Assembly (NCBI RefSeq): GCF_964212655.1
Contig: NZ_OZ156465.1
Coordinates: forward strand, 806,001 to 870,000
Origin: Candidatus Thiodiazotropha sp. LNASS1
GTDB lineage: Bacteria; Pseudomonadota; Gammaproteobacteria; Chromatiales; Chromatiaceae
Direction of reading: 5' to 3'
Length of the DNA: 64,000 bases
Below are positions 21,528 to 27,320 of the stretch, one piece after another. Numbering within the stretch: the first letter of the stretch is position 1; each line of letters starts with the position of its first letter. Below the pieces are notes generated by a model. It saw only the letters and a program-made list of their open reading frames with translations. It was not told the origin of the DNA and searched no databases. A program made the position numbers and the translations under genes.

Positions 21528-21561
21528 TTGTCATCAAACTGTAATATTTTAGGAATATAGT
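21528..21561 (+). promoter_or_regulatory. PhoB-activated promoter of pstS
   Basis: TTGTCATCAAACTGTAAT (21528–21545) matches the Pho box (two CTGTCAT-like heptamers 11 bp apart) and is followed, after 10 bp, by the -10 hexamer TATAGT (21556–21561). That is the spacing seen when a Pho box replaces the -35 element. The leader to the pstS ATG is about 128 nt. Confidence 0.75.
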
Positions 21562-21695
21562 CGTCATTAACCTGCAATATTCAACGCAGATCAAAAAACA
21601 ATATGAAGGCTGCCCACTCAAGATGGGGTAGCGGGGTCGACTATCGTTTTTTACGCTTTTACGGTTAATCTAATTTATTACTAAGGGTGTTCACA

Positions 21696-22571
21696 ATGAG
21701 GAAAATCTCTTATGCCATCTCAGTGGCGGCCAGCAGTCTGTTTATTGCTTTTTCGGCACAGGCCGCGGATCGTACCGTCATACAGAACAAGGGTTCTGAC
21801 ACGCTGGTGAATGTTGCCCAGGCCTGGGCTGAAGCCTATGGTGATGTGGATGCCAATGTGGCGGTTGCAGTATCGGGTGGGGGATCCGGCACAGGCATCG
21901 CCGCCATGATCAACGGTACGGTGGATATTGCCAATGCCAGCCGCCAGATGAAAAAGAAAGAGTTGAAGCTGGCAAAATCAAAGGGGCAGGACCCAATCGA
22001 GCATGTGGTCGGATATGATGCCCTTGCTGTCTTCATCCATCAGGACAACCCGGCGGATACTCTCAATTACGATCAGTTGAAATCAGTTTTTGGGCGCGGT
22101 GGAAAGGCTACAAAATGGTCCGATCTGGGACTGAAAGTACCAGGCTGCAAGGGTGACGAGATTGTCGTTGTCAGCCGCCAGAACAACTCCGGCACCTACG
22201 CCTATTTCAAAAAAGAGGTACTTGGCAAGAAAGGCAAATACCGCCAGGGGACTTTGGACATGCACGGTTCGAAAGATGTGGTTGATCTTGTCGAGAAGAC
22301 ACCCTGCGCCATCGGATACAGCGGATTGGCCTACGCCACGGATCATATCAAAATGGCCTGTATTATGAAGGATGGTGGTGATTGCGTCACACCCAGTGTG
22401 GAGACAGCCAGTGACCGCAGTTATCCCATCGCACGGCCGCTGTTCATGTACACCAACGGTGAACCACAAGGCGCCATCAAAACCTATCTTGATTGGGTTA
22501 AGAGTGATGAAGGCCAGTGCATTCTCCTGAAAAAGGGGTATGCACCGGTACGCGGCGTAAGCTGTAATTGA
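21696..22571 (+). CDS. pstS: Phosphate ABC transporter substrate-binding protein PstS
   Basis: 291 residues from the ATG at 21696, which has AAGGG 9 bases upstream; an upstream in-frame GTG is less likely. Signal peptide ends at AQA. Phosphate-binding segments NKGSDTLVNVAQAWAE, VSGGGSGTGIAAMINGTVDIANASRQM and RQNNSGTYAYFKKEVL are intact. It captures phosphate in the periplasm for the PstCAB complex. A long stem-loop follows the gene and may let more PstS than transporter be made. Confidence 0.93.
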   Translation: MRKISYAISVAASSLFIAFSAQAADRTVIQNKGSDTLVNVAQAWAEAYGDVDANVAVAVSGGGSGTGIAAMINGTVDIANASRQMKKKELKLAKSKGQDPIEHVVGYDALAVFIHQDNPADTLNYDQLKSVFGRGGKATKWSDLGLKVPGCKGDEIVVVSRQNNSGTYAYFKKEVLGKKGKYRQGTLDMHGSKDVVDLVEKTPCAIGYSGLAYATDHIKMACIMKDGGDCVTPSVETASDRSYPIARPLFMYTNGEPQGAIKTYLDWVKSDEGQCILLKKGYAPVRGVSCN

Positions 22572-22581
22572 TAAGAATCGA

Positions 22582-22619
22582 TCCCAATCCAGGTTGTTTC
22601 ATCCATACCTGGATTGGGA
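22582..22619 (+). terminator. Stem-loop after pstS (attenuator or RNA stabiliser)
   Basis: A 13-bp perfect stem, TCCCAATCCAGGT (22582–22594) with ACCTGGATTGGGA (22607–22619), 10 bp after the pstS stop. There is no T-run, so it is more likely a partial terminator or a 3'-end-stabilising structure than a full stop. Confidence 0.5.
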
Positions 22620-22783
22620 ATTCCATACACTGCCTAGTTGTTCACTTTAATGGGCGATATATGGATCGTCTTGCATGATCACACAGTATAAATCGTACTG
22701 TTTCGATACTCGAAGAATAACTGCATCAATTACAAAAAACACGTTGTCATTTTGTGACAGTATACATTGCGGAGCACCAGACA

Positions 22784-23860
22784 ATGGCCCACCTCGAAGA
22801 ACGACTGGAGCGCGACCTTAACAATATCCACGATCGTGTGGCGAAAATGGGCGCACAGGTACAGGAAGCTGTCAGAAATGCAGTGAAGGCTCTGCAGACA
22901 GGGGATAAAAAACTCGCCTACAACACGGTGTTGAACGACAACCCGATCAATCGCTGCATGCGTGATATCGACAGGATCTGCCACCGTTTTTTTGCCATCC
23001 ACATACCCAGCGGTGGACACTTGCGACTGCTCTCCTCTGTAATACGCGCAAACATCGAACTGGAGCGTGTCGGTGATTACGCCGTCACCATTGCCCGTGA
23101 AGCGGCACAACTGTCTCAACCTCCCAGCGGCGGCCTGGGCAGGGAGCTTGATCGCATCGCCGGCGAAACCATGAACATGTTGCAGTTGGCCATCAGTGCC
23201 TTTACCGAGCTGAATGCCGATGCCGCCACAAGCACCATGACGCTGGCAAAGGAGATGGAACACAATCTGGATGTTGTCTATACGGAGATGATGGAGAACG
23301 ATGAACGCACCAAAGTGGAAGAGGTACTTGCGATCTTTGTCGTCTTCACACAACTCAAACGGACTGCGGACCAAGCCAAGAATCTATGCGAAGAAACCGT
23401 GTTCGCTGTTACCGGAGAGCAGAAATCACCAAAGACCTTCAACATACTTTTTGTCGATGAGGACAACAGCAGCCTGAGCCAGTTGGCGGAAGCGATCGCC
23501 AGAATCAATCATCCCACTGTCGGCAACTATACTAGCGCCGGCCGGATCAAGGCTGAGACCCTCAATCCAAACCTGACCAGGTTTTTCGATGAAAAGGGCA
23601 TCGACTACAGCGATGCCAAGCCGACCTCCATCGAACAGCTGACGAGCAAAGAGATATCCGAGCAGCACGTGGTGGTTTCTCTGCAGGGAGAGATCTCCTC
23701 CTACCTGTCCCGCATACCCTTTCACACATCCGCTTTGGAATGGGGACTGGGCGAAGCGCCCGAGGATGAGGATATTCATGAATACGATTCGATCTATCGC
23801 GAATTGGCAATACTGATTAAGGACCTGATGGAATTGCTTCGTGGTGAAGGAGCAAGCTGA
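22784..23860 (+). CDS. PhoU-type phosphate regulator fused to an inactive low-molecular-weight phosphatase-like domain
   Basis: 358 residues from the ATG at 22784 (GGAG 9 bases upstream). Residues 1–215 form PhoU helical repeats (LERDLNNIHDRVAKMGAQVQEAVRNAVKAL, VIRANIELERVGDYAVTIAREAAQL). From residue 219 a domain aligns with the LMW protein tyrosine phosphatase/arsenate reductase family (FNILFVDEDNSSLSQLAEAIARI, TSAGRIKAETLNPNLTRFFDEKGID), but the catalytic Cys of CX5R is Asp225 and the Arg is Leu231, so it should be inactive. PhoU restrains Pst transport and PhoR signalling; here the extra domain may sense or bind phosphate. It lies between pstS and pstC, instead of after pstB. Confidence 0.82.
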   Translation: MAHLEERLERDLNNIHDRVAKMGAQVQEAVRNAVKALQTGDKKLAYNTVLNDNPINRCMRDIDRICHRFFAIHIPSGGHLRLLSSVIRANIELERVGDYAVTIAREAAQLSQPPSGGLGRELDRIAGETMNMLQLAISAFTELNADAATSTMTLAKEMEHNLDVVYTEMMENDERTKVEEVLAIFVVFTQLKRTADQAKNLCEETVFAVTGEQKSPKTFNILFVDEDNSSLSQLAEAIARINHPTVGNYTSAGRIKAETLNPNLTRFFDEKGIDYSDAKPTSIEQLTSKEISEQHVVVSLQGEISSYLSRIPFHTSALEWGLGEAPEDEDIHEYDSIYRELAILIKDLMELLRGEGAS

Positions 23861-23861
23861 A

Positions 23862-24794
23862 ATGTCAGAGATCCAACACCTGCAACCGTCGATGTCTGCC
23901 GATTTCGATAGCCGGAATTTAGACTGGTATATCGACAGGATTGTCCAGTCCCTGGTCTTCATTGCCGGCATCTCGGCAATCATCTTCATCATAGGCATAT
24001 TCGTATTTATCACCATGGAGGGCTTTGGCTTTCTGCTGGAAGACTTCACCTTCAGGGAATTTTTTCTTTCGCCGTTTTGGGAACCCTCCGACGAGGATGC
24101 CCCCGAGTATGGCATACTCGCCCTGGTGGCAGGCACCGCCAGTGTTACCGGTCTGGCGATGGTGGTGGCAATCCCCTTCTCGCTCGGGGCGGCCATCTTT
24201 ATCGGTGAATTCGCCACCGGCAAACTGAGAGAGTCCCTCAAGGTGCTGGTGGAACTGTTGGCCGCCATCCCCTCAGTGGTGTGGGGCTTCATCGGCCTCT
24301 CCATCATGAATCCGCTGATTATCGACCTGTTTGATGTGCCGGTGGGGCTGAACGTACTCAACGCCGGCATCATCCTGGGATTGATGGCGGCGCCGATCAT
24401 GACCTCTATCGCAGAGGATGCGCTGAAAGCGGTACCCGACCGCTATCGCGAGGCGGCGGAAGCACTGGGAGCCACACGCTGGCAGGTCATCTTCAAGACC
24501 GTCCTGCCCGCGGCGAAGAACGGCCTGCTCGGCGCGGTCCTGCTGGGTGTCGGGCGCGGCTTTGGAGAGACAATGGCGGTGCTGATGGCCACCGGACATG
24601 CCGTGAATATTCCCAGCAGTCTATTCGATCCGGTGCGCGCACTGACCGCCACCATCGCCGCGGAGTTGGGTGAAACCGCTGTCGGGTCACCACACTATCA
24701 GGCACTGTTCACGATCGGAATCTTCCTCTTCATCATCACCTTTTTGATCAACCTGTCCGCGGATCTCATCGTCCGTGGCATCCGTAAGGGTTAA
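23862..24794 (+). CDS. pstC: Phosphate ABC transporter permease PstC
   Basis: 310 residues from the ATG at 23862, one base after the phoU stop, with GGAG upstream inside the phoU end. Six membrane helices and the EAA loop that contacts the ATPase, EAAEALGATRWQVIFKTVLP. A PstC-typical loop (DFTFREFFLSPFWEPSDEDAPEYGILALVAGT) follows the first helix. It forms the membrane channel with PstA. Confidence 0.92.
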   Translation: MSEIQHLQPSMSADFDSRNLDWYIDRIVQSLVFIAGISAIIFIIGIFVFITMEGFGFLLEDFTFREFFLSPFWEPSDEDAPEYGILALVAGTASVTGLAMVVAIPFSLGAAIFIGEFATGKLRESLKVLVELLAAIPSVVWGFIGLSIMNPLIIDLFDVPVGLNVLNAGIILGLMAAPIMTSIAEDALKAVPDRYREAAEALGATRWQVIFKTVLPAAKNGLLGAVLLGVGRGFGETMAVLMATGHAVNIPSSLFDPVRALTATIAAELGETAVGSPHYQALFTIGIFLFIITFLINLSADLIVRGIRKG

Positions 24795-24800
24795 ATCGTC

Positions 24801-25670
24801 ATGTTCGCCGAATCTGCACTGAATGTACGGAACAAACGGGTTCAGAACCTGTACCGAATCCTATTCCTCTTGATGACTATTCTATTGGTTGTCCCGGTAA
24901 TCATCATCTTGAGCACTCTGATAGCCAAAGGTGGCAGCATCATCTCGATCGATTTTCTGTTTACCGATCCAACCAACGGTATGACCGCCGGCGGTATCTT
25001 TCCCGCGCTGCTGGGTACGGTATGGATCGTCGCCGTCGCCTTGCTGGCATCCGTGCCCCTTGGCGTGGCGGCGGCTATCTATCTCAACGAGTATGCCGGC
25101 GATAACTGGTTTACCCGGATAATCCAGTTGGCGATCATCAACCTCGCGGGGGTGCCGTCGATCGTACACGCCCTGTTCGGGGTCGGCGCCTTCGTTATCT
25201 TTTTCGGTTTCGGCACCAGCATCCTGGCGGCCAGCCTGACCCTGGCCATCATGACGCTGCCGGTGGTTATCGTCGCCACCCGGGAATCTTTGCGTGCCGT
25301 TCCCCAGGCATTCAGGGAGGCGTGCTGGAATATGGGCGCCACACGCTGGCAGACCATAAAACGTGTGGTGCTTCCCAATGCGGTAAGCGGTATCCTCACC
25401 GGTGTCATTCTGGAGGTTTCACGCACCACTGGTGAAACGGCGCCCATCATGTTCACCGGGGCAGCCTTTTTTCTACCCTTTCTGCCGCAAAGCGTCTTTG
25501 ATCAGACCATGGCCCTTTCGCTGCACCTTTTCGTCGTCGCCACCCAGGTGCCGGGTGTGCCGGAGAACCTGCCGTACGGCGTCGCGCTGGTACTGATTGC
25601 CATGGTACTGCTGATGAATAGTATCTCTATCGCATTCCGCATGTATCTGCGAGGTAAAAAGAAATGGTAG
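24801..25670 (+). CDS. pstA: Phosphate ABC transporter permease PstA
   Basis: 289 residues, six membrane helices. EAA loop EACWNMGATRWQTIKRVVLP; the conserved GGIFPALLGTVWIVAVALLASVPLGVAAAIYLNEYA and GVPSIVHALFGVGAFV segments are PstA-type. It starts 6 bp after pstC and overlaps the first pstB gene by 7 bp. Confidence 0.92.
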   Translation: MFAESALNVRNKRVQNLYRILFLLMTILLVVPVIIILSTLIAKGGSIISIDFLFTDPTNGMTAGGIFPALLGTVWIVAVALLASVPLGVAAAIYLNEYAGDNWFTRIIQLAIINLAGVPSIVHALFGVGAFVIFFGFGTSILAASLTLAIMTLPVVIVATRESLRAVPQAFREACWNMGATRWQTIKRVVLPNAVSGILTGVILEVSRTTGETAPIMFTGAAFFLPFLPQSVFDQTMALSLHLFVVATQVPGVPENLPYGVALVLIAMVLLMNSISIAFRMYLRGKKKW

Positions 25671-26479
25671 ACATGAGCCTCACTGCAGCAGTACCCGAAA
25701 CAGTAGTGGAGAGTACCGTTGAATCGCCTATCAAGCTCCAGGTCAACGACGTAACCATCAAGTATGGCGCTACGCCGGCCCTGAGCGGTGTCAATCTGTC
25801 GGTACACGAACATGAGATCTTCGGCATCATCGGACCCGCCAACGCCGGCAAGACATCGTTTCTCAAGGCCCTGAACCGTATGGATACCTTCAACTCCAAC
25901 ATGACGGTTGAGGGCCAGATTCACTTCAATGGCCTCGATATCCACAATCTCAGGAATATCTATGCCCTGCGCAGCCGCATCGGCGTTGTATTTCCCCTAC
26001 CGGTCGGACTGCCCCTGACGATATATGAGAATGTCGCATTATCACCACGCCTGCGCGGCATCAACAATAAGGGTGATCTGGATATTATCGTCGAACGCTG
26101 CCTCACCCGTGCCGCACTCTGGGACGAGGTCAAAGACAGGCTCAACTCCCTGGGCAGTCTTCTCTCTGGCGGTCAGCAACAGCGGCTGACCATCGCCCGC
26201 GCCCTTTCCCAGGAGCCGGATCTGCTGATGCTGGATGAATTCTCCATCGCAGTCGACCCGGTTACCACCATGCGCATAGAGGACGTGCTGAAAGAGCTGA
26301 AAAAGGATATGACCATCATCCTGGTCACCAACCTGGTGCAGCAGGCCAGACGGCTTGCCGATCGAACAGCCTTTTTTCTCGAAGGCCAGTGTGTGGAGAT
26401 CGGAATAACCGAGGATCTGTTCACCGGTGAAGTCGAGGATCAGAGAACGCGGGACTATGTCGAAGGTAAGTTCGGCTAA
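25664..26479 (+). CDS. PstB-like ATPase 1, with altered Q- and H-loops
   Basis: 271 residues of PstB type; GAGGT ribosome binding site inside the end of pstA. Walker A GPANAGKTS (57–65), an intact signature LLSGGQQQR (167–174) and Walker B LLMLDEFSIAVDP (187–199) are present. Two coupling residues are lost: the Q-loop glutamine is Pro111 (VVFPLP instead of VFQKP) and the switch histidine is Asn223 (LVTNLVQQA instead of VTHNMQQA). The D-loop is also unusual (SIAVD for SALD). Its own ATP site should therefore be poor, while its signature can still complete the partner's site. A second, different PstB is encoded 31 bp downstream. Confidence 0.85.
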   Translation: MVDMSLTAAVPETVVESTVESPIKLQVNDVTIKYGATPALSGVNLSVHEHEIFGIIGPANAGKTSFLKALNRMDTFNSNMTVEGQIHFNGLDIHNLRNIYALRSRIGVVFPLPVGLPLTIYENVALSPRLRGINNKGDLDIIVERCLTRAALWDEVKDRLNSLGSLLSGGQQQRLTIARALSQEPDLLMLDEFSIAVDPVTTMRIEDVLKELKKDMTIILVTNLVQQARRLADRTAFFLEGQCVEIGITEDLFTGEVEDQRTRDYVEGKFG

Positions 26480-26510
26480 ACACTATCCACTCTATGAAAA
26501 GAAAGCGTAA

Positions 26511-27320
26511 ATGCCAGTTATGAATGCCACTGCAAATGCTATCAACGAATCTGTGCCTGAGTTAGCCATCAAGACCAGCAAACTCAACCTCTGGTACGGA
26601 ACCTTCCAGGCGCTCTTCGATGTGGACCTCAATATCCGCAACGGCATGATCACCTCCCTGATCGGCCCTTCCGGTTGTGGCAAATCGACTTTCTTGCGCA
26701 GCGTGAACCGTATCAACGAACGACTTGGTTACGTGCGTATCGAAGGCAACATCGATGTCATGGACAAGAACATCTACGACCCTGAGGTGGAGCTCGTCCA
26801 GGTACGTAAACAGATAGGCATGGTGTTCCAGCGACCCAATCCACTCCCTATTTCGATTCGCGACAACATCCTGTTCGGTCACCGGATACATGCATCCAAG
26901 GGTCAATCCTCCAAAGCCGAGGAGGATGAGATCGTCGAGTCTGCACTGCAGCAGGTGCTTTTGTGGGGCAAGGTAAAAGACCGTCTCAACCAGAAGGCAA
27001 CCGAACTATCCCTCGAAGAACAACAGAAACTCTGCATCGCGCGTCTGCTGCCGGTAAAACCGAGTGTATTGTTGATGGACGAGCCCTGCTCCGCCCTCGA
27101 CCCGAAAGGTACCGCAGCCGTTGAGGAACTGATCTGGGAACTACGCGGGAAATACACCATTCTCATCGTCACCCACAACATGGCCCAGGCCAGGCGCGCC
27201 AGCGAAGAGTGTATTTTCATGTTGATGGGCAAGGTCGTCGAACACCAGCTGACTGAAGACCTGTTCGTCACACCGAACCAAAAAGAGACTGCGGACTACA
27301 TCGAGGGCCGTTACGGGTAA
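26511..27320 (+). CDS. PstB-like ATPase 2, with degenerate ABC signature
   Basis: 269 residues of PstB type. Walker A GPSGCGKST (52–60), Q-loop Gln107 (GMVFQRPNPLP), Walker B VLLMDEPCSALDP (186–198) and switch His222 (IVTHNMAQA) are all canonical. The signature LSGGQ is replaced by LSLEEQ (166–171). Its losses are the exact complement of those in PstB-like ATPase 1, so a heterodimer would have one canonical and one degenerate ATP site. No good Shine–Dalgarno sequence is obvious; AAGAAAG lies 5–11 bases upstream. Confidence 0.85.
   Translation: MPVMNATANAINESVPELAIKTSKLNLWYGTFQALFDVDLNIRNGMITSLIGPSGCGKSTFLRSVNRINERLGYVRIEGNIDVMDKNIYDPEVELVQVRKQIGMVFQRPNPLPISIRDNILFGHRIHASKGQSSKAEEDEIVESALQQVLLWGKVKDRLNQKATELSLEEQQKLCIARLLPVKPSVLLMDEPCSALDPKGTAAVEELIWELRGKYTILIVTHNMAQARRASEECIFMLMGKVVEHQLTEDLFVTPNQKETADYIEGRYG

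Follow-up and report, generated by a model that had tools for sequence, protein, structure and literature searches.

Two PstB-related ATPases with complementary motif losses in a Pst-type operon point to an asymmetric heterodimer

The Pst system is the textbook pump for high-affinity phosphate uptake and acts, together with PhoU, as a phosphate sensor as well; it is usually modelled with a symmetric dimer of the ATPase PstB. The E. coli pst operon encodes PstS, PstC, PstA, PstB and PhoU, and the PDB entries for E. coli PstSCAB (9k3s, 9k3x) each contain the PstB sequence as two chains. We analysed a stretch of 64,000 nucleotides (the window, positions 806001-870000) from the 4.75 Mb, single-contig genome of Candidatus Thiodiazotropha sp. 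LNASS1 (NZ_OZ156465.1), and found an operon on the + strand (21687-27320) with the gene order pstS-phoU-pstC-pstA-pstB1-pstB2, in which phoU is a fusion gene. As in E. coli, PstS, PstC, PstA, PstB-type ATPases and PhoU are encoded in one operon. Unlike E. coli, with its two copies of one PstB, this operon encodes two different ATPases, PstB1 and PstB2, which are predicted to form one canonical and one degenerate ATP site.

In Firmicutes, too, a pst operon can carry two neighbouring pstB genes, which encode PstB1/PstB2 in E. faecalis and PstBA/PstBB in B. subtilis. The B. subtilis pair has been modelled as a heterodimer (PMC11466899), and the E. faecalis proteins are described as having different roles and canonical motifs (PMC12096839; this and the other PMC papers are cited here from excerpts of their text). 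The window pair differs from the Firmicute pairs in that canonical motifs are not kept in both proteins. In this it resembles the exporters TM287/288, TAP and Pdr5, which have one consensus and one degenerate composite site. Each composite site takes its Walker A, Walker B, A-loop, Q-loop and H-loop from one subunit and its signature from the other (PMC7756269). In TM287/288, one site hydrolyses, and nucleotide at the degenerate site stabilises the contacts between the ATPases (PMC5216877). The degenerate signature of Pdr5 is LNVEQ, with Glu at the second Gly as in PstB2 (PMC7756269). However, these systems are exporters in which the Walker B Glu or the Walker A Lys is often changed (PMC7756269), whereas PstB1 keeps both and changes the Q-loop Gln and the switch His. 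Among importers, RbsA and NupO of B. subtilis have one degenerate ATP site (PMC11466899). Their ATPase domains are fused in one chain and the second Walker A Lys is lost; PstB1 and PstB2, in contrast, are encoded by separate genes in a Pst operon. The original prediction knew of no described Pst importer of this kind, a claim that we narrow: a heterodimeric Pst ATPase and degenerate importer sites both have precedents in these B. subtilis proteins, but narrow queries of the open-licence PMC literature found no earlier description of a degenerate PstB pair, an absence that is not proof.

The motif losses in PstB1 and PstB2 are complementary. The two genes and the residues in question are as follows.

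25664-26479, + strand: pstB1, 271 amino acids; TIGR00972 score 274.9 bits, below the cut-off of 343.2
25994-25996, + strand: codon CCC of Pro111, in the Q-loop of PstB1
26330-26332, + strand: codon AAC of Asn223, at the switch-histidine position of PstB1
26511-27320, + strand: pstB2, 269 amino acids; TIGR00972 score 324.2 bits, below the cut-off of 343.2
27006-27020, + strand: degenerate signature LSLEE of PstB2 (L166-S167-L168-E169-E170)

In PstB1, Pro111 replaces the Q-loop Gln and Asn223 replaces the switch His, and the LSGGQ signature (residues 167-171) is intact. The A-loop Tyr, the Walker A Lys and the Walker B Asp-Glu are all retained. Further departures from canonical PstB are in Walker A (GPANAGKTS), at Phe193 after the catalytic Glu, and around the D-loop. 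PstB2 has intact Gln107 and His222 and canonical Walker A and Walker B motifs, and its LSGGQ is replaced residue for residue by LSLEE, followed by QQ. The original prediction had both open reading frames and these residues right. It had given the PstB2 signature as LSLEEQ; the loss of LSGGQ holds, and the final Q is the residue after the five-letter replacement. TIGR00972 (PstB) was the best family for both proteins, yet both missed its equivalog cut-off; by this model they are PstB-related subfamilies and not PstB equivalogs. The best PDB match to an AlphaFold2 model of PstB1 was E. coli PstB (9k3s/9k3x, TMt 0.92 and 0.94).

The altered letters were conserved throughout the homologues. PstB1 of the window shares 99% identity with its counterpart in Candidatus Thiodiazotropha endolucinida, and the letters at the key positions are identical in 21 operons (the window and 20 relatives). 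We then compared 106 distinct PstB1 and 100 distinct PstB2 sequences (trimmed rows of less than 150 amino acids were excluded, and identical rows merged). Pro was at the Q-loop in all 106 PstB1 and Asn at the switch His in all 105 that were readable there, together with LSGGQ (106/106), the Walker B Glu (106/106) and the Walker A Lys (105/106). In every PstB2 (100/100), Leu-Glu replaced the two signature glycines, and the Gln, Glu and His were present. One further row (L221), removed from an initial 101, is PstB2 by best hit but lies in a divergent second-PstB stretch and has LSIGQ with Gln and His. Homologues with the canonical residues, which the original prediction took as a sign of sequence error, did not turn up: Gln or His was in 0 of 106 PstB1, GG in 0 of 100 PstB2, and neither in any of 46 new pairs described below.

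Neither Pro at the Q-loop nor Leu-Glu in the signature was found in any of 85 other PstB-type rows, whose sources were the class, genomes with the pair, and plasmid and phage records. These rows best matched a canonical query; leaving out nine with altered motifs gave 76 controls, chosen on those motifs, of which all 76 had Gln and His, 73 had LSGGQ and three had MSGGQ. In a scan of alignment columns, 72 were near-invariant (≥93%) in the controls, and 12 of them were switched in PstB1 and five in PstB2. The PstB1 switches were in Walker A (three), the Q-loop (three), Walker B and the D-loop (three), the H-loop (one, the His) and elsewhere (two), with none in the signature. In PstB2, the signature stretch accounts for three switches, and the rest are F139 and A206, both of which are also switched in PstB1. 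Because of this pattern, the losses peculiar to PstB1 appear to affect residues for its own ATP, and those peculiar to PstB2 residues that would be offered to the partner's ATP. One intact composite site and one dead one would call for just such a split.

New loci had the same letters. Of 71 further PstB1 matches in the genome sets of the family, the class, Longimicrobiales, Thermoanaerobaculia and Planctomycetota, we fetched 58 loci, and in all 58 both genes were on one strand, in the order B1-B2, with the same letters. Forty-six of the pairs were distinct from every earlier pair over the C-terminal 200 residues of each protein, and all 46 agreed. This search used PstB1 sequences and so selected weakly for the PstB1 letters and not for those of PstB2. 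Two PstB1 matches (G619:C48:113913-114683 and G776:C132:1869-2639) each contain one in-frame stop, which may reflect an error of assembly, decay or a wrongly assigned start.

Chance, sequence error and gene decay were rejected for the window pair. Compared with 10 same-genus relatives, dN was far below dS wherever dS was computable, with dN/dS of 0.06-0.10 for PstB1 (7 of 10 comparisons computable) and 0.05-0.08 for PstB2 (4 of 10). These low ratios and the same key letters in 21 operons speak against error and decay, and letters that recur there and in the wider sets are not due to chance.

The complementary PstB pair occurs in many bacteria of distant phyla. A PstB1 orthologue (≥77% identity) was in 21 of 56 genomes, including that of the window; the other matches listed were at most 46% identical. 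The pair was in 16 of 20 other genomes of the genus. At strict E-value limits, 31 of 146 genomes from the family and 8 of 369 from the class had a match (both including the window's genome). Around three other centre genomes, themselves counted, the figures were 15 of 81 (class of a Longimicrobiales genome), 22 of 80 (class of a Thermoanaerobaculia genome) and 12 of 119 (phylum of a Planctomycetota genome). Named genomes, when scanned, yielded at least 581 relatives at any distance, of which we retained the best 80; these have labels from 12 phyla, with four loci lacking a phylum label. Records of Accumulibacter, whose members are polyphosphate accumulators, also have the pair. We examined 100 loci closely, the 80 named ones and 20 others, with 98 distinct PstB1. 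B1 was upstream of B2 on the same strand in 97, the remaining three ending at a contig edge, and the order pstC-pstA-pstB1-pstB2 was kept throughout the listed loci. Co-occurring pairs in other genomes, which the original prediction had proposed as a check, were thus present in 97 of these 100 loci and in all 58 fetched later.

PstB1 and PstB2 each formed one clade. A quick tree was built from 88 rows (24 B1 and 24 B2 picked for diversity, and 40 others); in it, both clades had SH-aLRT support of 100 and were on long stems. Tandem pairs from Latilactobacillus (L209) and from a record labelled as a Listeria phage (L213; one protein with MSGGQ), whose motifs are canonical like those of E. faecalis, were outside both. 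The first split within each clade separated Poribacteria, Verrucomicrobiota and one further lineage from the rest. A single origin of B1 and B2 by one duplication was not rejected by the tree test (the constrained tree was 25 log units better, p-AU 0.818), but with two long stems involved we do not claim it. Distances among B1 and among B2 were correlated (r 0.86, 65 loci), as were those across the whole operon (0.64-0.94), which shows joint inheritance of the operon genes, not binding. A mobile origin was rejected: every match at E≤1e-40 in plasmid (132 records) and phage (21 records) collections was less than 60% identical.

In many genomes, no other PstB was found. We searched 30 pair-bearing genomes chosen from the 80 named loci. 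No PstB above the TIGR00972 cut-off was present in 22, and no third PstB at E≤1e-70 was found in 14, many of the genomes being metagenome-assembled genomes (MAGs) that may be incomplete. Two of the 14 are single chromosomes (Dechloromonas CP059264 and Thiotrichales CP070838). Given these 14 genomes, a dependence of the pair on a canonical PstB need not be assumed. We also searched 12 genomes, again many of them possibly incomplete MAGs, with the PstA model, and nine showed a single PstC/PstA pair at E≤1e-30; one of the nine, a Poribacteria genome (L139), has a further weak PstA-like gene. Two ATPases per permease pair favour a heterodimer.

Additional PstB-like genes accompany the pair in two groups. 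In five Poribacteria loci (L133, L134, L135, L138, L139), pstB2 is followed by an extra pstA-like gene, a third ATPase and then a plain phoU; the third ATPase has Arg or Gly for the Q-loop Gln, an LSIGQ-like signature and Asn for the His. Three pair-bearing Gemmatimonadota (L157, L161, L217) have another PstB-like ATPase with LSAGQ or LAAGQ and with His, Tyr or Asn at the H-loop, and it adjoins its own PstC/PstA in the two genomes searched.

Based on these results, we consider it quite likely that the operon encodes a Pst-type phosphate ATP-binding cassette (ABC) importer with an ancient, obligate PstB1-PstB2 heterodimer that has one hydrolytic and one degenerate site. We infer the heterodimer, the chemistry of its sites, its stoichiometry, phosphate as the substrate and the role of the regulator from the letters and the gene context. 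Provided that PstB1 and PstB2 pair, one composite site would lack catalytic and signature residues and the other would be complete. By analogy with TM287/288, the canonical site would consist of the PstB2 Walker A and B, Q-loop and switch His with the PstB1 LSGGQ, and should hydrolyse ATP. The degenerate site would consist of the PstB1 Walker A and B, lacking the Gln and His, facing the PstB2 LSLEE. With A-loop, Walker A and Asp-Glu kept, it should bind nucleotide without productive hydrolysis and would act as a structural or regulatory clamp, and one PstC-PstA pair would then be driven by one ATP turnover per cycle. Homodimers would fare differently: both sites of PstB1-PstB1 would lack the Gln and His, and both sites of PstB2-PstB2 the signature glycines. 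Gene adjacency, the single permease pair in nine of 12 genomes and joint inheritance are indirectly consistent with a heterodimer. The original prediction had read the complementary losses as one canonical plus one degenerate site; the fixed letters support that interpretation, with pairing still a prediction.

The rest of the operon is as expected for a phosphate importer, apart from its PhoU. The remaining genes are listed here.

21687-22571, + strand: pstS, phosphate-binding protein; TIGR02136, 236.1 bits (cut-off 206.6)
22754-23860, + strand: phoU fusion gene, PhoU plus an ArsC/low-molecular-weight (LMW)-phosphatase-like domain lacking the nucleophile Cys; TIGR02135, 136.6 bits (cut-off 130.25)
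23841-24794, + strand: pstC, permease; TIGR02138, 277.9 bits (cut-off 196.45)
24801-25670, + strand: pstA, permease; TIGR00974, 264.4 bits (cut-off 193.45)

PstS, PstC and PstA, the set that marks a Pst importer, and PhoU all passed their curated NCBIfam cut-offs. The PhoU fusion protein gave an AlphaFold2 model with a mean pLDDT of 88.1, and Foldseek matched it to the PhoU fold (4q25, TMt 0.92) and the ArsC fold (1jf8, TMt 0.88). ArsC sequence models matched residues 231-359 with scores far below their cut-offs. The C-terminal domain has the fold of thioredoxin-type arsenate reductases and LMW phosphatases and lacks their catalytic Cys. At the nucleophile position of the P-loop motif, Cys was in none of 76 rows (the window and 75 of the 100 loci); 70 had Asp, five Gly and one Ala. 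Five Poribacteria loci have a plain PhoU only, lacking the ArsC-like domain. Twenty of the 100 loci had no PhoU row; about half of these are cut short, and ten have room for one (L109, L111, L112 and seven Acidobacteriota). One narrow query of the open-licence PMC literature found no earlier description of a fusion of PhoU with an ArsC or LMW-phosphatase domain. This fusion is probably the partner regulator of the pump.

Other features lie near the operon. A site at 21528-21545, upstream of pstS, has two mismatches to the Pho box consensus; such sites are no commoner in the window than expected by chance (8 versus 6.5), and the Pho box was not upheld. A histidine kinase was in the flanks of 11 of 86 loci and an OmpR/PhoB-type regulator in 8 of 86, judged by similarity to one Pfam-scanned example each; these may be PhoR and PhoB. 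Some same-genus genomes (L042, L043, L044 and L066, of which L044 and L066 are probably one contig) have a second, divergent pstS (49-52% identical) after pstB2. Relatives of an ATP-cone and phosphoglycerate-mutase-like protein were near the operon in seven loci (L073, L075, L076, L077, L080, L081 and L103), as two neighbouring open reading frames in three of them; the domains were Pfam-scanned for the L076 copy.

Several observations weigh against a heterodimer with a single hydrolytic site. The retained Walker B Glu and Walker A Lys of PstB1 could leave its site some activity, and Asn at the H-loop supported transport in the exporter ABCC1 (PMC7756269). Where the degenerate site of a TM287/288-type exporter has its Walker B Glu replaced, PstB1 has kept it in 106 of 106 sequences, making this an unusual kind of degenerate site. 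Partial motif decay is seen outside the pair, too: nine of the 85 other PstB-type rows had altered motifs (Asn was at the H-loop in six of the 85), and every one of the nine came from a pair-bearing genome of Poribacteria or Gemmatimonadota. The pair is dispensable in the four of 20 same-genus genomes that lack it. Canonical PstB above the cut-off is present in 8 of the 30 pair-bearing genomes and could in principle also pair. The window's genome, which is not among these 30, also has such a protein (G000:C1:2741095), encoded in its own complete operon with phoB, pstS, pstC, pstA and phoU. The original prediction had asked whether a canonical pstB elsewhere might serve this transporter; one does exist here and might do so in the window's genome, and none was seen in the 14 genomes noted above. 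Of the 80 named loci, 79 are MAGs, and some phylum labels and some counts of genomes with the pair as the only PstB may be wrong. The heterodimer, its ATPase activity and uptake are all predictions.

Three other readings can be set against these data. A PstB2 homodimer with a non-standard signature might be the working ATPase, with PstB1 as a nucleotide-binding accessory or regulatory subunit. PstB2 does retain its cis catalytic residues, and in E. faecalis PstB1 is accessory and can be replaced by excess PstB2 (PMC12096839). However, both signature glycines are gone in all 100 PstB2, and the LSGGQ kept by all 106 PstB1 is best explained if it is turned towards ATP bound by the partner; we regard this reading as very unlikely. 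Slightly less probable still is that both composite sites hydrolyse ATP and that the changed residues are tolerated variants, the asymmetry having no functional meaning. The Walker B Glu and Walker A Lys of PstB1 fit this idea, as does the tolerance of Pdr5 for changes in one or two motifs (PMC7756269), but here the three motifs of one site are altered jointly and with the same letters throughout the sets, and neutral drift would be unlikely to keep them. The least probable of the three is that the operon imports or senses a ligand other than phosphate, such as arsenate or another oxyanion. It would account for the ArsC-like domain on PhoU and for the full canonical Pst elsewhere in the window's genome. 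On the other hand, that domain lacks the Cys, several genomes show the pair operon as their only Pst, and the nearest solved relatives of PstS are named phosphate-binding proteins (4pqj, 4omb), with the GSDT and RxxxSGT segments of 4pqj kept. We therefore favour a phosphate importer whose working site would combine the PstB2 cis residues with the PstB1 LSGGQ.

The findings may have a wider meaning, which we put forward tentatively and at somewhat less than even likelihood. There may be a second class of Pst importer that spans phyla and predates the division into its two main lineages. Its obligate PstB1-PstB2 heterodimer, in which just one site hydrolyses ATP, would drive PstC-PstA under gating by a PhoU whose ArsC-type domain is dead; together, this domain and the dead ATP site would tie the signalling state of the pump, beyond transport, to the phosphate or energy state. 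In practical terms, counting pstB by the curated cut-off overlooks many pair-bearing genomes, as in the 22 of 30 that have none above it. A natural Pst with one dead site, the sole Pst found in some genomes, would open the question of why degenerate ATP sites evolve in importers, if a single hydrolysis suffices for each cycle, and in what way the ATP sites communicate with PhoU.

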